Virus record (IMG/VR): IMGVR_UViG_3300032020_000029
Span: 1 to 36,246 of that record
Strand: one strand, 5' to 3'
DNA: 36,246 bases
Source: a virus
Each line of letters begins with the position of its first letter. Positions within the stretch are counted from its first letter, which is position 1. This document shows, one piece after another, positions 1,118-16,788 of this stretch. Position numbers and translations under genes: made by a program. Under the pieces are notes generated by a model. The model saw nothing but the letters and a program-made list of their open reading frames with translations, searched no databases and was not told the DNA's origin.

Positions 1118-4100
1118 CTAAAAGCCACGAAGTTCTCTAATTGCATCTTCAATTCGTTGGGCTTGGTAATCTGTCAATTCTTCTGCTGTTATGTCTTCTC
1201 TTATACCAAGATTCTTTAATAAATCTGTGTAATGAGAAGCCATATCAAGCCAATACTTTCTATTGGCTAAGTTCGGGTCTGTAGTTGTCCATCTATCCCC
1301 AACTAACTTAGTTACTTTCCCTGCAAGAAGCATCCAGGCATCTAATTCTGGATGTTCATGCCTGAAGTTTAATCTTGCCTGTCCTTCTGGTAAGCCTGAA
1401 TATTCTTGGTATAGCTTATAGACTTCACGGGTGGGCACCTTGCTGAAGTCCTTTTGCTCAGTCCAGATGCCCAGTTTATACATGGTGTCGTAAAACTCTT
1501 TGTGTTCCATTAAGAACCAATCATCTTCATAACCGCTTCGGCTTTCTGCATACCATTCTACCCAGTCCTCAATCAAATGCTTGGGGAAGTCCACATCCAT
1601 AGCCTTCATGCGGTTTCTATCATCTCTAAAGTCAGGATGGGAAGTAAGATACTGCTCTCTGGCTTTCTCTCTGGCATCATCACCAGCAATATACTGTGGT
1701 GACTTCCTATCACCGAAAGCATCATACTCAGCTTGTGCGTCTCGCCACTTGATTTGAAGCTGGTAATACTCAATTCCTCGATAATCCTCTGTCCCTTCCC
1801 AGTTCCAGTTCTCCATCGCCCAGTTAGTAAACTCAGGATGTTGTAGTCTCCACAGCTTTGATTCCGCACTGTTTCCGCTAAATCCAAGCTGGTTGTAGCC
1901 AAAGTAATCTTGTATTAGATTCTGAGGCGGTAATCCTAGCCCCATTTGTTCTAGTGGTATGCCTAATTCTTGACCCCACTTAACGACAAGGTTATAGGCT
2001 TCCATTGATTGAAGTTTCCCACCATACCCCCACAGAGCCAGCATTGCGTCGGCTTCAGGATTCGCTAGGCGATATTCAGCCCGCCAGTCCTTTGCCAAGT
2101 TAGGATTCAATGCGATAAAGCCTTCCTTATCCGCCTCTGCCATGCCTTGATATGTTTTCCATAAGTTATAGTATTCCGCCGGGATATTGCCCTGGTCGAA
2201 GTCTTCTTGAGTCATCTCGATAATCGGTTTGTAGGGTAAATTCCAGTATTCTCTACTTAACTTCTCGGAATCCTGCCCCTTCTTGACCCAGAGAGGATTA
2301 AGCCCCTTCTCTTCCTTTGTCGTGGCGATGTAGTTAAGAATCTCGTTATACAGCTCTTCGCCGTGCTTTTCGACAAAGGCAGCGATTCGCCTATCTCTTT
2401 CGTTCCAGTTATAGTCGCCGTTAGCCAGATACATACCGGCATCTTCAGCAAATCGTATTTGAGAGTTATACTCAGCATAAGCTAAGTCCCACTTAAATTC
2501 ATACTTCGAGCCTTCGGCTTCCTTCTTATCAAAGTATTCAAAGATGCTTCGGTAGGTCGGGTCTCGGCTGATAGCCTCAATAATAGAGCCGTAGTTTTGA
2601 CCAGCCTCACTGCATAATTCACGGTATGTCGTGGTGTCAATCTCTCCCGCCTGTAATCTCCTTGTGAGTTCGTCAATTCTTTCGTAGTAGATTGCCCGCT
2701 CTTCGTCTATCCTGTCAGTATAGGCTTTCCACTCTGGCGTCTGCCGTATCTTACTGTCATTCTGAGCATCTTCGTATAACTCAGCCAGTTCAGGGTAGCG
2801 GGTAAGTAAGTCTTGTCGTTGCTTCTTGGTCAGCTCACCCCACCCTAGTTTACCAGCCTCCCACGCTTCTATCTGTAAATCATCTAGCTCGTCTCGTGGT
2901 ATTTGCTTAATATAGTCTTCAGCCTTATCGTAGAATCTTACCCAGCTAGATTCAGGAATTGAGCGCCAGCCAAATATCTCAAAGATAGGCACGGCTGCCC
3001 TAGCTACCCCTTCTGGTATTTCATAGTCCCTAGTCAAGCCAGGAATCATCCAGTTAATACCCTGTTCCATCCATATCGGCTCAAAACGGGTCATAATATA
3101 CCTAGCATACTCCCAAGGCGTTTCAATAGGATAACCTAGAAAGTCCTTGCCGGTAGCCAAGTCAAAGCCCATTCCTGTTACCGGTGAAGAACGAGAATAC
3201 CACCAATAAACGAAGGGATTGTCCTTATTAAGCCCGCCGTGTTTTAGAATTTGCACCAGGTCTATTCGTTCCTTGTCTCCAACTGTGTTGATGCACTCAC
3301 TGATGTTTCCTATTAGTCTGACAAACCCATACCAAAAGCCACCGGGGCCAAAGGTATAATTACCTATTTTAATACCTAGGAAGTCGCTGAGCGGTCGCCA
3401 TATTACTTCGTGAGTTATCGGGTCTTCCCTGATGCCTAATCCCTCTTTTACCGCTTCCCAGGCATCATCCTCATCTTTGCCTGAAAGTAACGCCATAGCC
3501 ATTTGAATACCCACATAATAAACGACACCCGCAACCATCAATCCCCCGAGTGCCTGTTTTGCCTTTGCGCCAGTATAGCCACCCCTAAATACATCGGCTA
3601 AAAGAGAAAGACAAGCCCTAGTATAGTTTGGTGCAAACCACATAAAAGACGACTCTAACTGTCTTACTGTCAAAGGCACGCCCTCAGCTTGTGCCAGTCC
3701 TGTCATTAAGTCCAAATGTCTGGCTAGCTCAAACCCCTTGCCTTGCTTTATCGCTTTATCAGAAAGAGCCTTCCAGAACTCATTACGCACTATCTCGCCA
3801 GCAGAGTAAAACGCCATCTCAGCCCTTGCAAATGGGTCTAAGGGAATCTTCCCTAGTGTCCAAGCAGCTATCTTTCCAAGTCCATGTTTCCCTCTCAAGG
3901 CTTCAAAGTAATCAACTGCCCTGGAGCTGCCCAGAAAGCTGACTCTTTGTAAAACAGCATCTTGGTTCTTTTCCATGTAGCCATAAAATACACCCGGATT
4001 GAAAAACGCTACCGTAGATTCACCCAGAGCCTTATACCACCCACCCATCAATTTAATGCCGATTCTAGGGCTTCTCAGCAGCATTGCATGGGCTAAACCG

Positions 4101-7100
4101 AATGAGGGGAGTCCTTGAATCATCATAGCTGAGAAGTCAAGAGCTGCCTTAGTTATTCTTAAAATACCAGCTGCATCGCTGGTAAACTTGAGAGCCGAAC
4201 TCCCCTTTTCTATCCCGAAGAACTTGTTACAGGCATCAATGAAATCTTGATTGAATATCCTGCCACCAGCAAAAGGCATGGGTAGATAACCTTCTCCGAT
4301 ACCCGCTTGTCTGACAATCTCCATCTTGGCTGCCCGTTCCGCCCTGGCCTGCCAGTATGGTGCTTTGCGAGCCTCTACCAAGGCTTTAGCTTCTTTAGTT
4401 AGAGTGTCAAATGCTGCCTTCCGTTCGGCTGCCGTCATAGCATCTGGCACGGTAAACTTGACTTGCTGAAATTCGGTCTCACCTGAAAGCTCGCTAACCC
4501 CCTCTATCTTGGGTTTGACATTGACATAAGGCATCGGTAAACCCTGTTCCTCGTATGTTTCGACTAGCTTCTTATAGTCGTCCATCGAGATTTGGACTAT
4601 TTCACCCTTACCTTTCGGGGTAACGGGTGTTGTATAGCCGAATATGTCTAGTTGTAAGCCTGCTTCTGGCATACCAGCTTCGGCGGTGGGGATTGCTACT
4701 CCATAACGGTCATAGATAAGCCGTTGTAAAACATTTTGAGCAGCAGGAGATAAATCTTCCCATTTGGATTCTGCTATTCTCTCTCCCACCTTGGTTAATT
4801 GCCCTTTATTATTAACCCACCCACCAGCTTTCACTAAGTCCACCTTGACACCAAGTTTTGCACTATCCCAGCGTTCTTGTGGTATTATTTTAAGTGTAAC
4901 CTCTGGGGTAACACCTTCTACTCCTCGCTCGTAGGGTACTCGTTTTTCCTCGATGGCTTGCTGAACTTCAGAGGCGGACAACCTATCTGGCACTCCGCGA
5001 CTGAGTAGGTCTTTATACCTTGTGGGGAACATCTCCGCAAGGCTAAGCCCCTTCCAACCTGGTTCATGCGGTTCTGCATAATACTTAGTAAGTTCCTCAT
5101 AGCGTGCTGGCTCAGGATACCTACCTGACTTAATAGCCTCTTCGTATTCTGCTTCGCTAAGCTGAAGAAATTCATATCTTGCCTCCCTTTCTGAAATCTC
5201 TGGTGGGATAATCTCCCTCTCCGCCACTTCAGGTCTGCCTTCGACATCTTGTAATATCCCCAGCATCCGTTTTATTTGTTCTGCCCTTCGGCTGGCATCG
5301 TCAACTAAAAGTCTAAGGTCTCTCGCCCTCTCTTTAAGGTCGGCTATCTGTTCTATCTTATTGACAAGTTCCTGCTCACTCATACCAAAGTGGTCAGCGA
5401 GTTCGTCAATGATGTATTCCCAGCGAACATTGCCCTCTTTGTCAAAGGCTCCGGGTTTGAGTTCCCTGCCCATCAACAGAATCTGGGCATTTCTTTTAGT
5501 TAGCGTCTCGGGCATCTGTCCTTCTTTCAGGACATCGGTGAGGGCTACCTTCTTGGTCTGCTTTAAGCCCTTCCGTGTGGTAATCGTTATCTCTGCTTTA
5601 TAAGACGCTACTGGGTCGGTTCTCAGAAACTCCTCAACCCCTTCAAGTTCGCTTTCCTGCTCAGCAACCATCTCGCCTATCTCTTGAAGCTGAGTTGCCA
5701 TCGTGTTACGCCAAGAAAGTCTATCCTCATAATCCATAAGATTGAAGGCTTCCCGGAGTTTCACTTCATCAGGGACAATGAGAGGTTCTACTTTTGGCAC
5801 CTCCCTTGCCTCTTTTGCCTTCGCCAGTTCTGCCTTTAGACTTCTGATAAGTTTCTCATTCTGTGATAATAATTGTCTTAATTGGTTTTCAGCAGAGGCT
5901 GGTATTTCAATGAGTGCCCTTAACCTTGCACCAAGCTCAGGAAATCGCCTCTCGATTGCACTGAGCGTTTGGGTAGGCAATCTCTCCCCCCTCTTAGCCC
6001 TGTTGATTGCAGATTGCAATTTAGCAGCATCGGCAAGCTCTGTCTTTGTCAGTTCCGCCCGCTTTGCTATTTCAGGGAATCGCTCTAATAGTCTCTCAGT
6101 GGGGGTAATACCAAACTCCTCAACGAACTTGGAGAATCTCTCTCCAGCTATCTCTTTGAAAGCCTCCTCAATATAGCTTCCTATTGAGGCTTCGATATTC
6201 GGCTCATATTCAATCCCTGCCTGTATCCCCTCTGCCATCGTCCTGAAAGAGCGTGGCTTTTTGTATGACGGGACGGCACCAGGTTTTCTGCCTGTCACGC
6301 CAGGTTTGCCTCTCACTTCCACCACTTCTCCTTCGACTGTCTTACCTGTAACTACCCGGTGGATCCACCGTTCATTGACGGTATTAAGTGCTACACCTTC
6401 CTTTTGCAAGAGTGCGAATATCGCTTTATTTATGCGATTGATTAAGGTTACATACTGCAAGCCCTTATCCATCCCTGTCCAGTCATACATTTCAGGATGG
6501 GTAAAGACATGCTCTAGTGTCCCAGCATTCTCTCGTTCGCTTTCGTATTGAGCAAGCAACTTCCCCGCCATCTTCGCTGAGTAACCCACTTCGTTAAAGC
6601 CGAAGAATTTGACGGAGTTCTCTATTGTGTTTCTCAAAACACTGGTCATCACCTTAGCGGCATTTCCGCCTATTCGGGTGATAGCCCCATAAACCACGGC
6701 GCCACGTCCTACTATATCCTCGGTTAGCTGACTTTCCTTGCCTATCAGGACTCGCCAGCCTAAAACCGCTTCCTCAACTTTCTTGATTACCGGTATCCTA
6801 GCAAGGGCTTTAACTGTTGTTCTAATCCAGTTCGGGATTATTAAGCCATCAATTAGTTCCTGACTTGTTGGTATCGTCAAAAGAGGTTCAGGAATATTAA
6901 CAAGTGGGATGCTAGGAGCTTTCACTCCCAATCCCATATCCCCACCAGGCACGACTAAATCAGGGTTAGACTCTTGAATCTGAGTCATTTTCTGCTTCGC
7001 CTGTTCTTCATCTAGTCTTGCTCGGTTTTCCTCAGTTAATTGCTCGCGGTACACTTCACCTTGCACATCCTCTGTTGCCTTCTTAACGAGACCAGCTACT

Positions 7101-8875
7101 TCGGGGTACTGGTCAATCACAACATCCAGTGCCTCGATTGTAGTTAAACCCTGCTTTATATTCTTATCAAACAACACTTTTTGCTCAGGTGTAAGACCCA
7201 ACACTGACCTATCTGTAATACGGGTGATTATTTCACCACCAGCACCAAACCCCAGACCAGCAATAGAGCCGAGCGCAAAAACCAACTGCATCTCAGGGTC
7301 AGTTAAATCCACCTCTCTACCAAGAGCTTGGTTGATAATCATCTCTTGATAAACTTCCTCCCCGCCCTCAGTTAATCCTTCAAAGACTAACTTCCCACCT
7401 ACTCGTGCTATGCGAACCAACCCTCTCCTTACCGCACCTATAGCCGAGGTGCCTATTGAACCAGTTGGCATAAAAGCCACAGCTAACTGTGCAGCATCAA
7501 GACCCACCAGCCTCATATTCTTATTGAATACCTCATCCGCCGCTGCATCTGCTTCCTCATGCGAAAGCCCTTGATACCTAGCCTGGTCATAAGTACCACC
7601 AGCTTCAAGAGCCGATTCTAATGGTCGCATAAGCGCAGCACCACCTATACCCTGTAGGATAGTTTGTAAGACACGCCCTAACTTCAGCCCGATTATGCCT
7701 TTGGCGACAACACCAGTTACCACTGGGCCTACTACCGCTCCAACGGCAGCGAAACCCGTTATGCCTGCCACCACCAAAACCATCAGAGTTGGCAACATGC
7801 GCAGTCCATAAGTCGCATAGAATTGAGGATTGAATAGTTGTCTCCAGCTAAACTCACCTGGCTCAAACGGCACAGGCTCAGCCTTTGCCTGCATATACTG
7901 ACCAAATTTAGCTATCTTCTCACCTATCCCACCATGACCAAGCCACTTGAAAATACCGCCCACATTCGCTACTAGGTCGCCTACTCCAGCAGTGAATGTT
8001 CCCCATTTCCCCCTTCCACCTACAGCCAATTCTTCCTCAACAATGAGTGACAAAGGGTTGAAGTAATCAGCTAATTGTGCTTCCGTGATTCCTGGGTATA
8101 GAAGGTGCACAAGTTCATCCGTCTTTTCGTTCCTGCCCTCACCCAGAAGTGAGGCTCTTAGTGCATCAGGATTGGCAGAGAAGTATGCCAGCATCGTGTC
8201 CACATTCTTGGCCGTTACTGGCTTTAACGCTTCAATAAATAGGAGTTTAAGTGCCTCAGCACCAAATATCTGCCCTAGCACTTCCTCGGTTACACCCTCA
8301 TACATTGCTCTCAGGAGTGCCTCTGTCTCTGGGGTTCTGCCAATTTCTATTATGTCTTGAACGAAAGCCTCGGGCTGAGATTGGGCATAAGCTAAGATTT
8401 CCTCAACACTTTGCTCAGGGAAAACCCTGCCAAAGATTTGCTCAATCTCCAAACTAGGCATCCATGTTTCCTCTACTGACGGGATATACCCTACGCCTAG
8501 AGCTGTTTCAAGCTCGCTCTTAGTGTATTTCTCTCCAGATGGTGCGATGTATAAATCATCCTCCGTAATCTCCCACTTCTCAGGGGTGATTAGACTGGAA
8601 GTGTAACCCTCTCCCGCTGGGGTCATTTTAAGTAGCCACCCTTCCTGAAGCGAAAGCCCCATCTGTTGAGCCTCAGACGGGGTGAAGAATAAGGGCATAT
8701 CGGGAAATGCAGTGGTTAATTGCCTCTGCTTGATTGTCTCGGTGAGCTGTGGGTACAACTCTCGCATATCACTTAACGATGTCCCATATTGCGACAAGAG
8801 GCGTTCGATTTCAATATCTTTCGCCTCTCGGTATTGACTTAATAAGGTCTCTTCCTCTAATGCAAATGCACTCAT
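1118..8875 (-). CDS. Giant internal virion / ejection-type protein (large polyvalent protein-like)
   Basis: A 2585-residue protein filling 21 percent of the genome, between portal and scaffold genes. The N-terminal ~290 residues are helical with two similar units (EILAYAQSQPEAF; TMLAYFSANPDAL). Residues about 358-415 are strongly hydrophobic and Gly/Val-rich, followed by an EGLTEGGEEVYQEM motif near 500 and another Gly-rich hydrophobic stretch near 530-550. Residues about 900-1250 are coiled coil. Residues about 1745-1950 (SFMWFAPNYTRA, a membrane-like helix near 1772-1795, GNYTFGPGGFWYGFVRL, SPVTGMGFDLATGKDFLG) resemble the LPD38-type domain of phage large polyvalent proteins. The last 500 residues carry repeated LxNPExD / HPEL units. 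Hydrophobic tracts and position suggest a protein packaged in the head and ejected with DNA, as T7 gp16-type proteins are; this is inference. No polymerase or lysozyme motif was recognised. Confidence 0.75.
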   Translation of the reverse strand: MSAFALEEETLLSQYREAKDIEIERLLSQYGTSLSDMRELYPQLTETIKQRQLTTAFPDMPLFFTPSEAQQMGLSLQEGWLLKMTPAGEGYTSSLITPEKWEITEDDLYIAPSGEKYTKSELETALGVGYIPSVEETWMPSLEIEQIFGRVFPEQSVEEILAYAQSQPEAFVQDIIEIGRTPETEALLRAMYEGVTEEVLGQIFGAEALKLLFIEALKPVTAKNVDTMLAYFSANPDALRASLLGEGRNEKTDELVHLLYPGITEAQLADYFNPLSLIVEEELAVGGRGKWGTFTAGVGDLVANVGGIFKWLGHGGIGEKIAKFGQYMQAKAEPVPFEPGEFSWRQLFNPQFYATYGLRMLPTLMVLVVAGITGFAAVGAVVGPVVTGVVAKGIIGLKLGRVLQTILQGIGGAALMRPLESALEAGGTYDQARYQGLSHEEADAAADEVFNKNMRLVGLDAAQLAVAFMPTGSIGTSAIGAVRRGLVRIARVGGKLVFEGLTEGGEEVYQEMIINQALGREVDLTDPEMQLVFALGSIAGLGFGAGGEIITRITDRSVLGLTPEQKVLFDKNIKQGLTTIEALDVVIDQYPEVAGLVKKATEDVQGEVYREQLTEENRARLDEEQAKQKMTQIQESNPDLVVPGGDMGLGVKAPSIPLVNIPEPLLTIPTSQELIDGLIIPNWIRTTVKALARIPVIKKVEEAVLGWRVLIGKESQLTEDIVGRGAVVYGAITRIGGNAAKVMTSVLRNTIENSVKFFGFNEVGYSAKMAGKLLAQYESERENAGTLEHVFTHPEMYDWTGMDKGLQYVTLINRINKAIFALLQKEGVALNTVNERWIHRVVTGKTVEGEVVEVRGKPGVTGRKPGAVPSYKKPRSFRTMAEGIQAGIEYEPNIEASIGSYIEEAFKEIAGERFSKFVEEFGITPTERLLERFPEIAKRAELTKTELADAAKLQSAINRAKRGERLPTQTLSAIERRFPELGARLRALIEIPASAENQLRQLLSQNEKLIRSLKAELAKAKEAREVPKVEPLIVPDEVKLREAFNLMDYEDRLSWRNTMATQLQEIGEMVAEQESELEGVEEFLRTDPVASYKAEITITTRKGLKQTKKVALTDVLKEGQMPETLTKRNAQILLMGRELKPGAFDKEGNVRWEYIIDELADHFGMSEQELVNKIEQIADLKERARDLRLLVDDASRRAEQIKRMLGILQDVEGRPEVAEREIIPPEISEREARYEFLQLSEAEYEEAIKSGRYPEPARYEELTKYYAEPHEPGWKGLSLAEMFPTRYKDLLSRGVPDRLSASEVQQAIEEKRVPYERGVEGVTPEVTLKIIPQERWDSAKLGVKVDLVKAGGWVNNKGQLTKVGERIAESKWEDLSPAAQNVLQRLIYDRYGVAIPTAEAGMPEAGLQLDIFGYTTPVTPKGKGEIVQISMDDYKKLVETYEEQGLPMPYVNVKPKIEGVSELSGETEFQQVKFTVPDAMTAAERKAAFDTLTKEAKALVEARKAPYWQARAERAAKMEIVRQAGIGEGYLPMPFAGGRIFNQDFIDACNKFFGIEKGSSALKFTSDAAGILRITKAALDFSAMMIQGLPSFGLAHAMLLRSPRIGIKLMGGWYKALGESTVAFFNPGVFYGYMEKNQDAVLQRVSFLGSSRAVDYFEALRGKHGLGKIAAWTLGKIPLDPFARAEMAFYSAGEIVRNEFWKALSDKAIKQGKGFELARHLDLMTGLAQAEGVPLTVRQLESSFMWFAPNYTRACLSLLADVFRGGYTGAKAKQALGGLMVAGVVYYVGIQMAMALLSGKDEDDAWEAVKEGLGIREDPITHEVIWRPLSDFLGIKIGNYTFGPGGFWYGFVRLIGNISECINTVGDKERIDLVQILKHGGLNKDNPFVYWWYSRSSPVTGMGFDLATGKDFLGYPIETPWEYARYIMTRFEPIWMEQGINWMIPGLTRDYEIPEGVARAAVPIFEIFGWRSIPESSWVRFYDKAEDYIKQIPRDELDDLQIEAWEAGKLGWGELTKKQRQDLLTRYPELAELYEDAQNDSKIRQTPEWKAYTDRIDEERAIYYERIDELTRRLQAGEIDTTTYRELCSEAGQNYGSIIEAISRDPTYRSIFEYFDKKEAEGSKYEFKWDLAYAEYNSQIRFAEDAGMYLANGDYNWNERDRRIAAFVEKHGEELYNEILNYIATTKEEKGLNPLWVKKGQDSEKLSREYWNLPYKPIIEMTQEDFDQGNIPAEYYNLWKTYQGMAEADKEGFIALNPNLAKDWRAEYRLANPEADAMLALWGYGGKLQSMEAYNLVVKWGQELGIPLEQMGLGLPPQNLIQDYFGYNQLGFSGNSAESKLWRLQHPEFTNWAMENWNWEGTEDYRGIEYYQLQIKWRDAQAEYDAFGDRKSPQYIAGDDAREKAREQYLTSHPDFRDDRNRMKAMDVDFPKHLIEDWVEWYAESRSGYEDDWFLMEHKEFYDTMYKLGIWTEQKDFSKVPTREVYKLYQEYSGLPEGQARLNFRHEHPELDAWMLLAGKVTKLVGDRWTTTDPNLANRKYWLDMASHYTDLLKNLGIREDITAEELTDYQAQRIEDAIRELRGF

Positions 8876-11004: not shown

Positions 11005-12180
11005 CTAGAATTGCCAAACCGGGCTTGTCTGCCTCGGCGTGGCTGTCGCAAAACCGAATTGCTCCGTCATACCCAAAGTGCTATATCTTCCGGCATCGCA
11101 GGCGTGATCCCGAATCTTCACTGGCTCTTCTAAAACCTTGCCGTCTTTGTCCTTCTTACGGCAGTAGTTTCTTACTTCCTTGATGGTCTCCACACTGGAC
11201 TTCGTTATGTATAAAGTCTGCCTTCTTACTACATCGAGCCCCATCTTGACATCTTTGTTTGAAGGGTAGATTACCCAGCCAGCTCTTTTAATCTCTTCTA
11301 TCTTATCTGGTGCTGACGAGTCGGCGTGAATGTCGGCTCGCTCCTCATGAGTGAGCTTTTCTATCAAGTCCGCATTGGTCAGTGCTGTTTGGTATATGCG
11401 TTCATCCCAATATAATTTCTTATTCGAGATGATGACCTTGATTAACGCCGTTGGGTTCACAAAGCCGAAATCTAACCCGTAAGCCCAAGCCTGCCAGTCG
11501 CATTTGGCTGGTAGTGCCTCTACGATTTGAAAATCAGGCCATATAAGGTTCTCCGGATGTCCCAATATCCCCAGACCGTAAACATTCCACCAGTTTGCGT
11601 CTTTGCCCTTGTTGGACTCGATATTATCAACAACTTCTCTTGGCAAGACTTTCAAAGCATCTAAGTAGGTGCTGTGAACATAGAAAGTATCTGGCTCTTT
11701 CAGCCAGTATTCGTGCGCCCAGAACTCTGACACTGGGTTCCAGTCCACGATTGTAAACTTAGATGTTCTTATATCTAAAGCCCTAGCGGTGTCCCAGGGC
11801 ACATTGTTGCCTTCATTGATGAATAAAATATCTCTTCTGGGGCCTCTAACCTTGTCCGATTCGTCGGCCCCGAAGAACTCTATCTTCGCATTACCGAAGT
11901 CATACCTGAATAAAGTCTTAGACCACCGGGGGTTATTCTCTTCTGATTCGTTGAGTATTCTAAAGAAGTCCCTGATGCACCCGCGCCTTAGATGTGGTAG
12001 AGATTCCGAGACAATAGTAATTAAAAGAGGTGATTTAGCCCCTTGAGATATTAGAATGAGTGACTGAAGGATTGACCATGTTTTGCTTGACCATGTACCT
12101 CCTTCGTGTAAGCACCTTCGATAACCGCCCAACCATGCTTTAAGCGTGTCCTCAAATACTCTTGTCGTTTCCAGTTGCAA
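11005..12180 (-). CDS. terL: Terminase large subunit (TerL)
   Basis: The 391-residue packaging motor pumps DNA into the procapsid through the portal and cuts it. The ATPase domain shows a deviant Walker A (GGTWSSKT, residues 27-34) and a Walker B (DILFINEG, near 115-122). The C-terminal RNase H-like nuclease shows its acidic residues in GLDFGFVNP (near 225), ADSSAPDKI (near 280) and RDHACDAGRY (near 370). The only upstream in-frame start before the Walker A is a TTG at 12178-12180 with a GGGAG box; this leaves an unusually short N-terminus before the ATPase motif. It overlaps the small subunit by 29 bases. Confidence 0.92.
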   Translation of the reverse strand: MQLETTRVFEDTLKAWLGGYRRCLHEGGTWSSKTWSILQSLILISQGAKSPLLITIVSESLPHLRRGCIRDFFRILNESEENNPRWSKTLFRYDFGNAKIEFFGADESDKVRGPRRDILFINEGNNVPWDTARALDIRTSKFTIVDWNPVSEFWAHEYWLKEPDTFYVHSTYLDALKVLPREVVDNIESNKGKDANWWNVYGLGILGHPENLIWPDFQIVEALPAKCDWQAWAYGLDFGFVNPTALIKVIISNKKLYWDERIYQTALTNADLIEKLTHEERADIHADSSAPDKIEEIKRAGWVIYPSNKDVKMGLDVVRRQTLYITKSSVETIKEVRNYCRKKDKDGKVLEEPVKIRDHACDAGRYSTLGMTEQFGFATATPRQTSPVWQF

Positions 12181-12571
12181 CCGTTCTTTCTCCCTCTAGT
12201 ACCTTGCTCACCATGTCTTTAGTTTGCTCATTAGAGACAACGATGTTGAATATCAAGTCCTTCCCACCTTCCCCACCGATTGGCTGTAATACCTTACCCT
12301 CTAATCTCTCAATAAGTTCACGGAAATAGACAGCGTTCTCCACCGCATGCCCTAGCCAGCGTTCAACTAGATATTCAGCCCAAGTTTTATCCGGGGCGTA
12401 AGGACATGATTCCGCAAGTTTCTCTCTAGCAAGAGATGTCAGGGTTAGTTCCTTTGGTGCCCGCCCCTTTGGATTTCCCGATTGCCCCTTTTGCCACCTC
12501 TGTTGATACTTCCTAAGGGCAGCTAGTTGGTTCGGGTGTTTGCCTGGTGGATATTTTTCCTCTTCTGTCAT
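12152..12571 (-). CDS. terS: Terminase small subunit-like protein (DUF5681 type)
   Basis: A 139-residue protein just before TerL. Residues about 18-38 hold the WQKGQSGNPKGR motif of DUF5681 proteins, which commonly precede large terminase genes in phages and prophages. The middle is helical (LTLTSLAREKLAE; AENAVYFRELIERLEGK) and the tail is polar. It should recognise viral DNA and hand it to TerL. Its start overlaps the stop of the preceding small gene as ATGA, and its end overlaps TerL. Function is inferred from the motif and position. Confidence 0.85.
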   Translation of the reverse strand: MTEEEKYPPGKHPNQLAALRKYQQRWQKGQSGNPKGRAPKELTLTSLAREKLAESCPYAPDKTWAEYLVERWLGHAVENAVYFRELIERLEGKVLQPIGGEGGKDLIFNIVVSNEQTKDMVSKVLEGERTVATGNDKSI

Positions 12572-12714
12572 ACTTTAACTAACCTCTTTCGATTCCTTCT
12601 TAAAAAAGCTCTACGGTCTTTTCTATTTGCCTGAAATAGTTTAACTTTACCATCTGGGGTTTTTATCCTGATGATTCCCAATGGGCTAGGTGTGAATTTA
12701 CCATCTTCAGTCAT
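12568..12714 (-). CDS. Basic 48-residue protein upstream of terminase
   Basis: MTEDGKFTPSPLGIIRIK begins at the ATG at 12714; the C-terminal half is very basic (KDRRAFLRRNRKRLVKV). Both ends overlap neighbours in ATGA fashion (12711-12714 and 12568-12571), which supports it as a translated gene. Basic charge suggests nucleic-acid contact; no family recognised. Confidence 0.65.
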   Translation of the reverse strand: MTEDGKFTPSPLGIIRIKTPDGKVKLFQANRKDRRAFLRRNRKRLVKV

Positions 12715-12941
12715 CTTAATCCTTCCTGAATATCTTTAAGAACAATAAGGAGTCCACTAGGTAAAGTCCTTCCAACAGGATGAATACCAAGATTGTCAGC
12801 AAGACGGCTCCCGAAGTTCGCAAGTCGTCTAGCCATAGAACAAGGGGAAGAAATAAACCTTGCCCCAGAATCCATATTACTTGGAGGTTCCGCCTCTTCA
12901 TCTATTTCTCCCGTAAGTTTAATTATGTTCCTTTTGTTCAT
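12711..12941 (-). CDS. 76-residue protein, frame A of an overlapping pair
   Basis: Starts MNKRNIIKLTGEIDEEAEPP with a TGAGGAAAAA box, overlaps the stop of the upstream gene (ATGA at 12938-12941) and the start of the downstream gene (ATGA at 12711-12714). This coupling on both sides is the main support. The protein is soluble-looking, with an acidic head and a Ser/Arg-rich middle, and resembles nothing I know. The same DNA also encodes a two-helix membrane protein in another minus-strand frame (12716-12901), so one of the two, or both, is real. Confidence 0.5.
   Translation of the reverse strand: MNKRNIIKLTGEIDEEAEPPSNMDSGARFISSPCSMARRLANFGSRLADNLGIHPVGRTLPSGLLIVLKDIQEGLR
12716..12901 (-). 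CDS. Putative nested holin-like two-helix membrane protein
   Basis: A 61-residue frame inside 12711-12941. It begins MKRRN, then a hydrophobic helix (residues about 6-24, with WILGQGLFLPLVLWL), a short polar turn DDLRTSG, a second helix (about 32-54, AVLLTILVFILLEGLYLV) and a basic tail KIFRKD. That is the shape of a small class II holin. A CGGGAGAAATAG box precedes the ATG at 12901. It lies among other small membrane proteins near a putative lytic peptidase. No sequence family was recognised, and hydrophobicity in one frame could be chance. Confidence 0.5.
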   Translation of the reverse strand: MKRRNLQVIWILGQGLFLPLVLWLDDLRTSGAVLLTILVFILLEGLYLVDSLLFLKIFRKD

Positions 12942-13177
12942 TTTTTCCTCAGTATCTTGGCTATCAATACGCCTAATCCAGCAAGGGCTATAATACCTAA
13001 AACCCTTCCTGCTTGGTAATAATGATGTTCAGCCCTCAAATCGTTTAGTAGCTCTTCGGATGGTTCATACCTAGCTCTCCAGAAGCAGAAGGTCTCAGAG
13101 AACCCTTCAACGAGGGCGTGCCATTCCTGATAAGTGTCCATAAAGTTGCTAAAATGAAACCACTTAAAAAATCTCAT
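12938..13177 (-). CDS. Small protein with C-terminal membrane helix
   Basis: A 79-residue protein with an aromatic-rich N-terminal half (FFKWFHFSNF, EWHALVEGFSETFCFW) and one membrane segment near residues 58-75 (VLGIIALAGLGVLIAKIL) ending in RKK. The tail orientation suggests an anchored protein with a cytoplasmic basic end. It lies between the putative peptidase gene and the nested holin candidate, so a lysis-associated role is plausible but not shown. The first bases overlap nothing; the stop overlaps the next gene as ATGA. Confidence 0.6.
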   Translation of the reverse strand: MRFFKWFHFSNFMDTYQEWHALVEGFSETFCFWRARYEPSEELLNDLRAEHHYYQAGRVLGIIALAGLGVLIAKILRKK

Positions 13178-13183
13178 ATTCTT

Positions 13184-13657
13184 CTAAAGCAAAACGAAGG
13201 CGTTTTTGAGGACATATAGACTCGATAAGTTCGGCCAGACAAACATGCGGTCGTTCTGGGGTTCCAAGAGCATGACTTTCCCATCAGGAAAGACGACTAA
13301 ATTATACCCATGTCCCGCCTTGTAATCTATGACGATACCCACCTGGTTCAGCCCGAAATACCAGTCCACATCAGCCTTAAGGGTGATAGCAAAATTCTCA
13401 CAATCAAATTTGTCCTTTACCCATTCCCTGCTATCTACCCAATGCCATGCAATTATATTCAAAAAATTGCTTTGATTTGTTAAATAATATTTACCATCAA
13501 GTGGAAGGCGTATAATGCTTGGCTCTAACATAAATAGACACTCTTGAACCCAGAGACTATCTTTCTCTACAATATAGGAAATCTCAGGGGGTGCAGGATG
13601 AGGGCTTAAATTCCTGAGAGTGGCCACCACCTCATTGAGCTTTGTTATCAGTTCCAT
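13184..13657 (-). CDS. Papain-fold / MOA-related cysteine peptidase-like protein
   Basis: A 157-residue protein. Residues 84-134 carry a likely Cys-His catalytic set: Cys86 in KFDCENFAI, His116 in AGHGYNLVV, and Glu132 with Gln134 in LLEPQND. This spacing and wording match the phage proteins annotated as lectin MOA-related or transglutaminase-like, whose C-terminal domain has a papain-like fold. No signal peptide is seen. No conventional lysozyme, amidase or CHAP gene was found in the window, so this protein, next to several small membrane proteins, is the best candidate for the lytic enzyme; it could equally act in the virion. The start at 13657 overlaps the upstream coiled-coil gene. Confidence 0.65.
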   Translation of the reverse strand: MELITKLNEVVATLRNLSPHPAPPEISYIVEKDSLWVQECLFMLEPSIIRLPLDGKYYLTNQSNFLNIIAWHWVDSREWVKDKFDCENFAITLKADVDWYFGLNQVGIVIDYKAGHGYNLVVFPDGKVMLLEPQNDRMFVWPNLSSLYVLKNAFVLL

Positions 13658-13808
13658 CCCAGCCTTTCAAAATAGCAAGAATAAGATTTACTTTCGTCTC
13701 CGCTTCAACTATAATTACCTTAAGTTTATCCAGCTCAGCTTTATTGGCATCATACTCTTGCTTATAGCCTGAGAGTAAACCTAGAATCTCTCGTAACTTC
13801 TCAATCAT
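13632..13808 (-). CDS. Short coiled-coil protein
   Basis: MIEKLREILGLLSGYKQEYD starts at 13808, in ATGA overlap with the preceding holin-like gene. The 58 residues are one amphipathic helix with heptad-like Leu/Ile spacing. No membrane segment or lipobox is present, so it is not a clear spanin. It overlaps the peptidase gene by 26 bases. Confidence 0.6.
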   Translation of the reverse strand: MIEKLREILGLLSGYKQEYDANKAELDKLKVIIVEAETKVNLILAILKGWDGTDNKAQ

Positions 13809-14005
13809 TTGTCCACCTTGTTATTTTTCAGATGTGTTATCGTCCGCTCAGCGAACCACCAGGTTATCGCTGGGATAGCCAGAGCGAGGAACCAGTCAGG
13901 GACAGCGATTCCTTCAATAACCACTTGGGCAATGACGGCAGCGAAGATGACACTGATCGCTGGTCTGGCTATTGCTCTAATGATTTCAACAACCGCATTT
14001 TCCAT
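13805..14005 (-). CDS. Holin-like two-helix membrane protein
   Basis: A 66-residue protein with two hydrophobic helices (about residues 14-32, PAISVIFAAVIAQVVIEGI, and 36-50, PDWFLALAIPAITWW) and a charged, Lys-rich tail. The shape, size and place just before a coiled-coil protein and the peptidase-like gene fit a holin that would permeabilise the inner membrane at lysis. A good AGGAG box precedes the ATG at 14005. It is the clearest holin candidate, but sequence alone does not separate holins from other small membrane proteins. Confidence 0.6.
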   Translation of the reverse strand: MENAVVEIIRAIARPAISVIFAAVIAQVVIEGIAVPDWFLALAIPAITWWFAERTITHLKNNKVDK

Positions 14006-14017
14006 ATCACACTCCTT

Positions 14018-15085
14018 TTACAGTTTCTCATTCACTTTAACATCATATTGCGCCGTTACGCCTCGCTTTGGGGATATAAAAAGAACCCACTGCCTAGGAT
14101 CGTCTTGTAAACCAAGTCTATAAAGAGGGTAAGCAGACCCACTCGCCCAAGTCCCATTAACAAAAATCGGGATTCCTGAAGGGCGGATATAATTGCAGAT
14201 ATGGAAATGACCCATAAAGCAATATTGCCACGTCCCTGGGATAGAAACATTCCATCTTAAAGTCCTTCGGTCTATGCCATAAAACGGTATGCCTAAGTAT
14301 GATGGAATCTGATCTCCGTGAACGAGAAGAATTTTTATATTGAAGATGTTTATTACCTGATAGAATTCGTTCTCCTCGATATGAAAGTGTATCTTCTCAT
14401 AGTTTTTAAGCCCTTGCTCAAGGATTTTATAAACGAAGGTATCCCAGTTCGTCTTTGCCGATATGCTTCGCCTTCCCTCAAGTTGCCCATGATTCCCGCG
14501 GACACAGTAAACCTCTATTTCGTCAAATAGCTGGAGATGACTTACTAAGAGGTCATTCAGCACTGGCACCGCCACTTCAAAGATTTGGTCTATCACTACA
14601 TGTTCCAGCTCTTCAAGTTTCGGGATAGGCACATTCATATTCTCAATAATGTCTCCCAATAAGCAGATATGGAGTTTCTTAATAGGTCTCATTTTGCGGT
14701 GCAGCTCACATAGCTTTAAACTCTTTTCCGTGAATAACACCGCCTCTTGTTTGAGAATCTTTGCATTGAAAGTCGGCGATTTCTGCCCAGCCTGTAAATC
14801 GGAAAGTAACAGAACTTGTGCCTCTTCGCCCTCTTGCTCGCTCACTTGAGGGATGGGTGTAATCTTAATCTCCGGTAGGGATTTAACTTCAATATCTTTT
14901 GCCAGAACCATAGGTTCAGGAATTTGTTTTAATGGACTATCACCTTCAGAAATCCAGCCTTTTAAGGTATCAAAGGCAACCTCATATTGCTCGGCTAATT
15001 TGAGCCTTCCAGCATGGTCAGCCTTATGATATGCCTCAACTAGCTTTTGATATTCTTCACCACTTGGCTTTTTACGTTGTGTCAT
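14018..15085 (-). CDS. Calcineurin-like metallophosphoesterase with N-terminal helix-turn-helix region
   Basis: A 355-residue protein. Residues about 10-48 form helices ending in VAFDTLKGWISEG, like a small helix-turn-helix. From residue 90 the metallophosphoesterase motifs appear in order: LLLSDLQAG (Asp96), GDIIEN (144-149), RGNHG (196-200), VHGD (255-258) and GHFH (292-295). The first motif is D-x-Q where the family normally has D-x-H, which would alter one metal ligand. Such phage enzymes are usually compared with Mre11/SbcD-type nucleases or nucleotide phosphodiesterases; substrate cannot be told here. It is coupled by ATGA overlap to the preceding small membrane protein gene. Confidence 0.85.
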   Translation of the reverse strand: MTQRKKPSGEEYQKLVEAYHKADHAGRLKLAEQYEVAFDTLKGWISEGDSPLKQIPEPMVLAKDIEVKSLPEIKITPIPQVSEQEGEEAQVLLLSDLQAGQKSPTFNAKILKQEAVLFTEKSLKLCELHRKMRPIKKLHICLLGDIIENMNVPIPKLEELEHVVIDQIFEVAVPVLNDLLVSHLQLFDEIEVYCVRGNHGQLEGRRSISAKTNWDTFVYKILEQGLKNYEKIHFHIEENEFYQVINIFNIKILLVHGDQIPSYLGIPFYGIDRRTLRWNVSIPGTWQYCFMGHFHICNYIRPSGIPIFVNGTWASGSAYPLYRLGLQDDPRQWVLFISPKRGVTAQYDVKVNEKL

Positions 15086-15246
15086 TCTTTACGATGCCTT
15101 CGTTTGTCTACGTAAGCCAAAATGAGAATCCCGCCGATTATTAAACCAAGATAGATAGGTGAGATATTAACTCCCATTTCCCTAAATATACTTTCAGCCT
15201 CAAGGCAAACTGCCGTGCAAAGAGCAAGTTCCAACCAGTTAATCAT
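15082..15246 (-). CDS. Single-pass membrane protein, 54 residues
   Basis: MINWLELALCTAVCLEAESI starts at an ATG overlapping the stop of the upstream gene (ATGATTAA). A membrane helix spans about residues 29-45 (ISPIYLGLIIGGILILAYV) and the tail DKRRHRKE is basic. The stop overlaps the phosphoesterase start as ATGA. Overlaps on both sides support translation. Function unknown; it may tether or be cotranslated with the phosphoesterase. Confidence 0.68.
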   Translation of the reverse strand: MINWLELALCTAVCLEAESIFREMGVNISPIYLGLIIGGILILAYVDKRRHRKE

Positions 15247-15493
15247 TCAATACCTTTATTGTCTTAATCATTCCCCGCGGAATCACCACGAAACCGTCCA
15301 TGAACATCTTGTCATGGAATAGGTTATTGATTGTTCCCTGAGTCAAGATAATCTTTTCATCATCACCTTTTATCAAATAGCCTACATTGTGGGACTCAAT
15401 GAGCTCGATATTAGTCACCGCACCAAGTTCAAGGCGAGCCTCATCACTCCAGGCATCAAGCCAGATTACTTCAACCTTCTTTAACTCAGGCAT
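15239..15493 (-). CDS. Conserved-looking small beta-rich phage protein
   Basis: Starts MPELKKVEVIWLDAWSDE at 15493, chosen over an upstream in-frame start at 15517 because a GGAGAGG box lies just before it. The 84 residues end in a pattern (NVGYLIKGDDEKIILTQG ... VVIPRGMIKTIKVL) that I recognise from many phage genomes, where the protein is always of unknown function. It is the first substantial gene after the noncoding region and overlaps the tiny gene before it by 13 bases. Confidence 0.72.
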   Translation of the reverse strand: MPELKKVEVIWLDAWSDEARLELGAVTNIELIESHNVGYLIKGDDEKIILTQGTINNLFHDKMFMDGFVVIPRGMIKTIKVLND

Positions 15494-15576
15494 ACCTCTC
15501 CTGTGAAAGTTTCCCACTCAAAAGGATATTCATAAGTTGGTTCAATAATAGTTACACTTAATTCTTCTTCATTCAT
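15481..15576 (-). CDS. Tiny acidic protein (31 residues)
   Basis: MNEEELSVTIIEPTYEYPFE begins at 15576 behind a TTGGAGATTAA box. It is acidic and ends inside the start region of the next gene. It is the first translatable unit after the tandem repeats at 15584-15644. Short length limits confidence; it could act as a leader peptide. Confidence 0.5.
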   Translation of the reverse strand: MNEEELSVTIIEPTYEYPFEWETFTGEVCLS

Positions 15577-15583
15577 TTAATCT

Positions 15584-15644
15584 CCAATACCCAAAATAGG
15601 TAAGATAATACCCAAAAAGTGAACATATACTCGGAAAAGTGAGC
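15584..15644 (-). repeat. Three tandem ~20-bp imperfect repeats (iteron or operator array)
   Basis: Read on the minus strand the copies are GCTCACTTTTCCGAGTATAT (15644-15625), GTTCACTTTTTGGGTATTAT (15624-15605) and CTTACCTATTTTGGGTATTG (15604-15585). Copies 1 and 2 agree at about 15 of 20 positions; copies 2 and 3 share TTTTGGGTATT. The spacing is two helical turns, as for cooperative protein binding. The array sits directly before a small gene and after two terminators. Confidence 0.65.
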
Positions 15645-15645
15645 A

Positions 15646-15660
15646 GTGGGATTGTCCCAC
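15646..15660. other. Short perfect hairpin beside the tandem repeats
   Basis: GTGGGA/TCCCAC arms with a three-base loop, immediately next to the repeat array. It could be part of an origin or operator, or an RNA hairpin; no T-run follows. Confidence 0.4.
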
Positions 15661-15669
15661 CATAAATGC

Positions 15670-15691
15670 AAAAGCCGTCCTGATGGACGAC
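15670..15691 (-). terminator. Second intrinsic terminator of the noncoding region
   Basis: On the minus strand GTCGTCC and GGACGGC pair over seven bases (one G-U) around an ATCA loop, followed by TTTT. It lies about 50 bases beyond the stronger terminator at 15738-15764 and may back it up or end a longer RNA. Confidence 0.6.
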
Positions 15692-15737
15692 CTCTGTACT
15701 CCTTCCACACTTACACCCTATGGTTGGTGGGCGAGCT

Positions 15738-15764
15738 AATAAAAAGCCACGCAGAAGCATGGCT
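15738..15764 (-). terminator. Intrinsic terminator of the putative noncoding RNA
   Basis: Minus strand AGCCATGC and GCGTGGCT form eight pairs (one G-U) around a TTCT loop, and the run TTTTT follows at once. This is a textbook Rho-independent terminator and sets the likely 3' end of the RNA started at about 15968. Confidence 0.8.
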
Positions 15765-15968
15765 CTAAAATACATGAAGCCCACTGTATACCGTGGGCTC
15801 CGCCCATCGACCGAAGTCTCAGGGGTAGTCAAACCTCGCCAATTCTCGTGCAAGGGAATGACGAGGAAGATTAAAATTGAGGGTTTACTTTCCGCTTCGG
15901 TTACCCTTATCGGCGCTAACCCATACGGGTCATCCTTGGCCCTCAATCTAGGCGTAAGAATACACCTA
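15740..15968 (-). ncRNA. Putative ~230-nt structured phage noncoding RNA
   Basis: This gene-free stretch follows a near-consensus promoter and ends at a strong terminator. Folding by eye on the minus strand gives, in order: a 7-bp hairpin at once after the start (15967-15961 with 15956-15950, TTCT loop); a long-range 10-bp helix (15949-15940 with 15883-15874, core ATTGAGGG/CCCTCAAT) enclosing a hairpin at 15932-15917 with GTAT loop and a GG-GTAA-CC mini-hairpin; a 5-bp hairpin (15865-15861 with 15849-15845); a GAC-TTCG-GTC tetraloop hairpin (15818-15809); and a 7-bp hairpin (15799-15793 with 15784-15778); then the terminator. It matches no RNA family I recognise. A stop-free 144-codon frame (15569-16003, TTG start) spans the region, but its Cys/Trp/Phe-rich composition is unlike neighbouring proteins and it would read through two terminators. 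Confidence 0.6.
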
Positions 15969-15974
15969 TTGTCA

Positions 15975-16003
15975 AGTATATTGCACCAAAAAGTCTTTGT
16001 CAA
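15975..16003 (-). promoter_or_regulatory. Strong sigma70-type promoter for the noncoding RNA
   Basis: TTGACA (16003-15998), exactly 17 bases, then TATACT (15980-15975). Initiation is expected near 15968. The -35 box overlaps the stop codon of the preceding gene. A second TTGACA starts at the end of the -10 box (15975-15970) but has no good -10 partner. Confidence 0.8.
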
Positions 16004-16179
16004 ATCCTCTCCTCAATATGTACTTCTGCATGAAGCCATGAATCGGGGTCATATTTGGGAGGTGTAATCATATTAGTATTTACTTTGAGCTTCTGCTCAA
16101 CGGGAAACTGCTTTGTCTCTCCACATTTGCATCTCCCGAAATTGTGTGTATCTACAATGTAGAAATGCTTATGGTTCAT
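16000..16179 (-). CDS. Small protein with one Cys-x-Cys pair (59 residues)
   Basis: Start taken at the ATG at 16179 (MNHKHFYIVDTHNFGRCKCG), next to a GAGAAG box; an upstream in-frame ATG at 16200 has a weaker site. Residues 14-24 (FGRCKCGETKQF) look like half of a zinc knuckle, similar to the short phage zinc-ribbon proteins that read CxCG...K. The rest is polar. It ends at the promoter of the noncoding RNA and starts inside the preceding Cys-rich gene. Confidence 0.6.
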   Translation of the reverse strand: MNHKHFYIVDTHNFGRCKCGETKQFPVEQKLKVNTNMITPPKYDPDSWLHAEVHIEERI

Positions 16180-16324
16180 CTTTCGGCTTCTCTTTCCCAT
16201 AGAATCGCCCGCCTAAAAATAGATTCTTTTCTGCATCCGTCTTGCAGCACTCCTCTATGAAGCACTGGTCGCAGTATTTTTCATCGCAATCGCAGTATTT
16301 ACCGCATTTGATACACTTGCACAT
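16169..16324 (-). CDS. Cysteine-rich metal-binding miniprotein (51 residues)
   Basis: Begins MCKCIKCGKYCDCDEKYCDQ behind an AAAAGGAGGAGAA box. Nine of the first 27 residues are Cys, in C-x-C, C-x3-C-x-C and C-x2-C patterns, so it very likely binds zinc in one or two sites. It overlaps the tail of the preceding gene by 70 bases in another frame and the next gene by 11. Such Cys-rich miniproteins are common in phage early regions with unknown roles; protein-protein or nucleic-acid binding is possible. Confidence 0.65.
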   Translation of the reverse strand: MCKCIKCGKYCDCDEKYCDQCFIEECCKTDAEKNLFLGGRFYGKEKPKDEP

Positions 16325-16788
16325 TTCTCCTCCTTTTTATCTTTTGAAACGCCTAGCGTTTCTTTCCGCCATCTTCTTATCCTCTTCCAGTTTGTAAAAC
16401 TATCTCTTTTCTGTCGCCAGCCCTTCACATAAAACAGGGCATCCCTGGCATCTCTATCTAAGGTATTAAATTCCCTCCCTGCTTCAATCTGGGCGGCTAA
16501 TAACTTCCCATGTATGCCCGTTCTTCTTAAACGAGATTCCACTTCGGCAAGTATTAAAATAGGCTTCACAAAGGTCGCTTCGGTTTTGATATTCCTTTGC
16601 CCAGAACCATCATCGCTGGACCTATCTGGGTCTTGTGGCCAGTGGCCAGCTCTTAATGTGTCGGAATTTCTGAGTATCCACAGAACCTGAAAAATGCAAA
16701 ATCGCACCTCAGCATAGTGATACCACTTTTTGAATCCAGAACACTCCCTATAATCCCGACAGCGCTGGCAGTCACCTGGCTCACTCAT
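16255..16788 (-). CDS. Protein of unknown function with N-terminal Cys cluster (177 residues)
   Basis: Starts MSEPGDCQRCRDYRECSGFK; Cys7, Cys10 and Cys16 form a likely metal site, followed by an aromatic helix (WYHYAEVRFCIFQVLWILRN). The middle is polar, residues about 85-120 are helical, and the segment FTNWKRIRRWRKE near 130-145 is strongly basic and could contact nucleic acid. The final ~25 residues are an odd Ala/Thr/Ser/Asn mix that overlaps the Cys-rich gene, so the true conserved protein may end earlier. Function not recognised. The start is four bases from a GGTGGTGAT box at the end of the preceding gene. Confidence 0.62.
   Translation of the reverse strand: MSEPGDCQRCRDYRECSGFKKWYHYAEVRFCIFQVLWILRNSDTLRAGHWPQDPDRSSDDGSGQRNIKTEATFVKPILILAEVESRLRRTGIHGKLLAAQIEAGREFNTLDRDARDALFYVKGWRQKRDSFTNWKRIRRWRKETLGVSKDKKEEKCASVSNAVNTAIAMKNTATSAS

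Follow-up and report, generated by a model that had tools for sequence, protein, structure and literature searches.

What does the one long gene-free gap of this phage genome encode and, if the product is an RNA, what would that RNA do? The window, by which we mean the whole stretch of DNA analysed, is the record of an uncultured virus; it is 36,246 bases long, and the minus strand carries its genes. Its sole intergenic gap longer than 300 nt, the first 369 nt of the record aside, spans 15518–15999 (482 nt), in agreement with an earlier note that had singled out this region as unique. The RNA described here has a regulator-like gene on one flank and the terminase part of the genome on the other, a position on which the earlier note had not remarked, and the whole leader is on the same strand as all the genes. 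The features concerned, with their supporting evidence, are the following:

16255–16788, minus strand: regulator-like gene, 177 aa, candidate late regulator; always upstream of the promoter in relatives
16000–16200, minus strand: 66-aa gene directly before the promoter; likewise in L149
15975–16003, minus strand: late-type sigma-70 promoter TTGACA-N17-TATACT; same promoter plan in relatives
15949–15968, minus strand: promoter-proximal hairpin P0, UAGGUGUA-UUCU-UACGCCUA; 5′ end of the transcript
15877–15946, minus strand: conserved 70-nt three-way-junction RNA core; R1 and R2 covariance models, homologues, covariation
15738–15868, minus strand: 3′ part of the leader, with CCUCG, C(UUCG)G and GGAGCCCAC hairpins and terminator 1; by folding
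15669–15730, minus strand: second conserved element of the leader, with terminator 2 (15696–15669) at its end; common to L238 and L239
15569–16003, minus strand: 144-codon TTG frame, rejected as a gene; codon usage, frame broken in homologues
11005–15517, minus strand: downstream genes, presumed late operon (92 aa, 54 aa, metallophosphoesterase, small genes, terminase)
14018–15085, minus strand: metallophosphoesterase gene, downstream of the leader
11005–12180, minus strand: terminase large subunit gene, downstream of the leader

Relatives were reached via terminase alignments and then via alignment of the gene family of 16255–16788 (the 177-family). Looking for relatives first with the metallophosphoesterase and with a 23-mer from the RNA (exact match) found nothing, and a nucleotide search of named phages and plasmids returned nothing resembling the RNA region. 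Among cellular genomes, the nearest terminases are those of Dehalococcoidia bins; to judge from these binned contigs, the host of the phage perhaps belongs to this class. Elsewhere in the window, a 157-aa protein (13184–13657) near the putative lysis genes gives sub-threshold Pfam matches to agglutinin/lectin C-terminal (papain-like) domains, and a 2585-aa protein (1118–8875) adjoining a portal-like gene has long relatives in L073, L087, L089, and L129.

Promoter, terminators and fold of the leader

The promoter proposed earlier, TTGACA-N17-TATACT, holds on the minus strand: TTGACA (16003–15998), a 17-nt spacer and TATACT (15980–15975) give 11/12 matches, the best among five candidates in 3 kb. 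At its final T, the −10 runs into a second TTGACA (15975–15970) at the place of the lambda '-35-like' element, which is required by lambda Q (PMC6606751). A TTGAC overlapping the −10 is found in the window, L149, L154, L094, L238, and L239, and at the same place in lambda; in the lambda control region examined, pR′ carries TTGACT where the end of the −10 is overlapped. Four further loci (L202, L206, L210, and L226) were chosen by the overlapping TTGACA in a promoter pattern search and are therefore unusable as evidence for the element.

The terminator claimed to follow the structured bases is likewise present, as the hairpin AGAGCCAUGC-UUCU-GCGUGGCUUU followed by a run of U's near 15766–15739. 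The terminator scan leaves this hairpin unlisted and lists its neighbours on either side (15801–15776 and 15696–15669), the latter being terminator 2, overlooked in the earlier note.

Between promoter and terminator, positions 15968–15738 fold at −89.6 kcal/mol (z = −4.1), a value equalled in 0/200 shuffles, and the most structured place of the genome is 15891–15661 (z = −5.4; whole minus strand, 231-nt windows). Folding reproduces the roughly 230 structured bases and the helices described earlier, including the enclosing 9–10 bp helix GAUUGAGGG/CCCUCAAUU, which contains other helices, and a C(UUCG)G tetraloop at 15816–15811. The structure of 15868–15738, with the UUCG hairpin and terminator 1, is predicted from folding, and no homologue of this 130-nt 3′ part (terminator 1 included) was found in the loci compared. 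At the other end of the leader, a hairpin of different sequence occupies the place of P0 in L087, L096, L129, L202, L210, L226, L228, and L239; over 26 leaders its mean stem score has z = 4.5 against shuffles, several distant leaders having no P0. We rejected P0 as a feature of the whole family: it is kept only in the close clade, and distant members carry a TATGCC motif.

A covarying three-way junction and its homologues

The central part of the leader is a three-way junction with the consensus order P1, AAGGA, P2, GCG, P3, AAAGUA, in which P2 has a GUAU loop and P3 combines a GUAA tetraloop with an AUAA/GAAG internal loop. Enforcing this fold in the window costs 0.2 kcal/mol of 88.7 relative to the optimum. 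Three further phage records contribute four more copies, one in L239/L330, two in L314/L328, and one in L295/L326. L239 shares its promoter region with the window and has an RNA 85.6% identical over 103 nt, its closing helix counting 19 bp versus 8–10 bp in the window. Both L314 copies and the L295 copy were first located by a gapped pattern; a covariance model, R1, trained on three sequences that included neither L314 copy 1 nor L295, recovers these two at 70 and 64 bits, respectively. Across the five copies, 98.9% of the base-pair cells are paired, and in 8 of the 18 pairs both partners have changed in a compensatory manner, the signature that the earlier note had proposed to seek with a covariance model. 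None of 500 shuffles reaches this conservation, and shifting the partners destroys the signal. Of the structured RNA claimed earlier, only the 70-nt core is conserved among relatives.

The rival reading of these bases is that they encode a 144-aa protein or, on the other strand, a 115-aa protein. Long open frames do run through the region, and the core peptide KDDPYGLAPI(R/K)VTEAESKPS is nearly unchanged in L239 (the R/K exchange and two synonymous differences). Yet the codon scores of the two frames, 0.017 for the 144-codon frame and −0.006 for the other, compare with 0.07–0.26 for most genes and with a mean of −0.05 (sd 0.07) for non-coding frames. Moreover, insertions in the homologous RNA of L314 and L295 shift both frames and bring stops into the 144-codon one, whereas compensatory changes preserve helices P1, P2, and inner P3 in these records; the flanking hairpins have wholly changed in sequence and retain their pairing. 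The TTG start of the 144-codon frame also overlaps the −35. The preference for an RNA expressed in the earlier note is upheld by the non-coding-like codon usage, the broken frame and the kept helices. The stretch is almost certainly a real RNA, and a protein product is hardly credible.

In Rfam 15, the window and its relatives match no family at the gathering threshold apart from a tRNA in L149, as the earlier note had anticipated in recognising no known family. At relaxed thresholds, the sub-threshold matches are chance fits to the two 3′ terminator hairpins only; group I intron, tmRNA, and RNase P were dropped since they gave no Rfam match. Searching 393 genomes of the class Dehalococcoidia and 400 phylum-wide gave no match to the core beyond chance level, and some short DNA matches in cellular genomes resemble chance overlaps with coding sequence. 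On the aligned sequences, the core is a covariation-supported RNA family uncatalogued in Rfam, and four records carry it.

The places in which the core occurs differ. Sequence comparison shows it inserted in the putative late leader of the window and L239, heading another operon in L295, and present twice in L314. In L295, it starts 7 nt downstream of TTGACT-N17-TATAAT, makes up the first 71 nt of the other operon, and ends 11 nt upstream of an ATG with AGGAGG; the second L314 copy is followed by a ribosome-binding site; and no terminator lies immediately after the core in either record. L238 keeps the promoter and terminator 2 and has no core, which argues that the core is an insertable module. 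It is absent from most relatives, including ones that retain the same promoter and terminator, so it would not be essential for late expression. All these locations share a position in the 5′ part of some phage transcript.

Gene order around the leader in related phages

Comparison of the relatives shows a conserved gene order: the regulator-like gene comes first, then a near-consensus promoter and an early terminator, and last the lysis/packaging side. In 19 of 29 loci, a promoter and an early terminator lie at most 2.1 kb downstream of the 177-family gene; for random segments taken from these loci, the mean is 0.5 and the maximum 2. The 177-family lies upstream of the terminase side in the relatives, and L149 even has, as in the window, a 51-aa and a 66-aa gene between regulator and promoter. 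The distance from promoter to terminator varies, with leaders of only 40–60 nt in L087, L096, L106, L149, L210, and L226 and of about 200 nt in the window and L010. The claim that the locus is a free-standing RNA gene has accordingly to be given up: the RNA is a leader between a conserved late-type promoter and genes of the lysis/packaging side.

The 177-aa protein has an N-terminal CxxC..C and a helical core (AF2 pLDDT 81). It has no match in Pfam, NCBIfam, or PHROG and thus belongs to no catalogued Q family; its AF2 model has no Foldseek match in the PDB at E 0.001, and a VIA fold search gave only a weak match to sigma region 4 (Z 2.2). Known Q folds did not come up among the results, though the protein may have such a fold. 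At L330 8157–8854 there are two adjacent 177-family matches, one complete and one a C-terminal piece, so that the L239 phage may have a duplicated regulator.

Likeness to known phage switches and possible roles of the core

The closest parallel to this layout is lambda Q-pR′-6S RNA-tR′, with which it shares the order of regulator gene, near-consensus promoter, leader, intrinsic terminator, and lysis genes. As in the window, a TTGAC overlaps the −10 of pR′ and the lambda leader runs for some 200 nt to an intrinsic terminator. There are differences as well: the 177-aa protein is not a recognised Q, the leader RNA has no sequence likeness to that of lambda, no counterpart of P0 and the three-way junction is known from lambda, and the likeness of the promoters has been established for the '-35-like' TTGAC, not for the −10-like pause element. 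Because the 177-aa protein falls outside the catalogued Q families, we say by analogy that the layout works like the lambda late switch, not that it is one.

The RNA is probably a late leader with a switch between termination and read-through. By default, polymerase starting at TTGACA-N17-TATACT would go no further than terminator 1 or 2, and the product would be a stable RNA of about 230–300 nt. At the late stage of infection, read-through into the late genes would be brought about by the 177-aa protein, or by some other phage factor, in the manner of lambda Q at pR′-tR′. The three-way junction, formed once polymerase leaves the promoter, may act in cis on the polymerase or on the terminators, where, like HK022 put RNA, it might help with pausing, loading, or antitermination. 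A cis effect of the core on transcription is a tentative proposal, which we place somewhat short of an even chance; for the explanation taken as a whole (leader transcript of a late promoter, read-through driven by a regulator, core in cis) the chances appear evenly balanced. Cis action on the polymerase or on the fate of the transcript is preferred since the core is in the 5′ part of the transcripts in all its contexts, and its place just before a ribosome-binding site in L295 and L314 copy 2 likewise points first to a cis-acting role.

That same place would also suit a riboswitch-like or translation-controlling 5′-UTR element, for which the late leader would be just one of several settings. 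An aptamer-like conserved domain, as expected of a riboswitch, is present in the 5′ UTR of L295, where the core opens the mRNA and the ribosome-binding site comes shortly past P1, and in that of L314 copy 2. The joining strands AAGGA, GCG, and AAAGUA are highly conserved around the covarying helices and resemble a binding pocket; with no terminator directly behind the core, translation control or ligand sensing fits in these two records too. In the window and L239, however, the first gene is hundreds of bases beyond the core, behind terminators, and the genes downstream of the core copies have no function in common. Riboswitches are rare in phages, which counts further against this reading, and we consider it unlikely.

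The terminated leader could instead be a stable trans-acting small RNA, in line with the earlier suggestion of an abundant RNA that perhaps regulates host or late phage genes. Strong promoter, terminator, and very stable fold would all agree with this, and there is a precedent in StxS, the discrete, trans-acting RNA that arises in the pR′-tR′ region of Stx phages when transcription from the late promoter ends early (PMC7873438). The conserved part of the window RNA is, however, a compactly folded three-way junction with no exposed seed, and the leaders of relatives are often shorter than 60 nt, so that such a role seems improbable. Finally, the core might be a selfish or mobile RNA module lodging in phage leaders and rendering the phage no service. 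Its presence varies among close relatives (absent from L238, present in L239), L314 carries two tandem copies beside an HNH gene, and elsewhere in the family the leader is occupied by a tRNA or by unrelated structured RNAs. Against this stand its constant orientation on the coding strand, 5′ of genes, the strong covariation, which implies selection on the RNA itself, and the lack of ends or of an open frame typical of a mobile element; we hold this explanation to be quite unlikely.

For the preferred reading, cis action on transcription, the model is HK022 put RNA, whose roughly 70 structured nucleotides are transcribed directly behind a phage promoter, before polymerase reaches terminators (PMC9378689). 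The core matches it in size and in its promoter-proximal, pre-terminator place. Put RNA consists of two stem-loops and belongs to early promoters, whereas covariation here supports a three-way junction with a GUAA tetraloop and not two stem-loops. It is conceivable, if rather doubtful, that the core represents a new self-acting class of phage RNA, a second and unrelated invention of put-like antitermination used in early and late operons of phages with uncultured (perhaps Dehalococcoidia) hosts. GOLLD, ROOL, and other phage RNAs in Rfam are also large and structured; the window RNA matches no Rfam 15 family.

The interest of the locus lies in a covariation-supported RNA family outside Rfam that sits at a defined point, the very start of what a phage operon promoter transcribes, and in an unnamed family of 177-aa regulators at the position of Q, with a conserved late promoter and terminator, in phages of hosts almost without genetics. 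Action on polymerase would make the core one of the rare protein-free antiterminators, and ligand sensing one of the rare phage riboswitches.

The late leader looks like a site where RNA genes come to settle. In L156, a tRNA-Met (CAT) gene (571–645) lies in the late leader just past the terminator, and L015 has a tRNA-like sequence at the same place (about 3123–3199), not called by ARAGORN. A second structured RNA, GCCAGCYACYCGAAAGGG...CTACTRGCTGGYAAAGAG, with no match in Rfam, fills the late leaders of L120 (about 7610–7760) and L235 (about 5520–5650), and an RNA similar to it (L328, about 2640–2800) precedes the core copies in L314. L010 has a GC-rich structured leader (520–720, z −4.3) with the same kind of promoter and terminator and no sequence likeness to the window RNA. 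Past the first terminator of L149, there is a second structured element (4040–4200) closed by CGACAGCCCC/GGGGCTGT. In the window itself, the loop of the GGAGCCCAC hairpin (15793–15786) contains the palindrome GUAUAC, a possible kissing dimer site.
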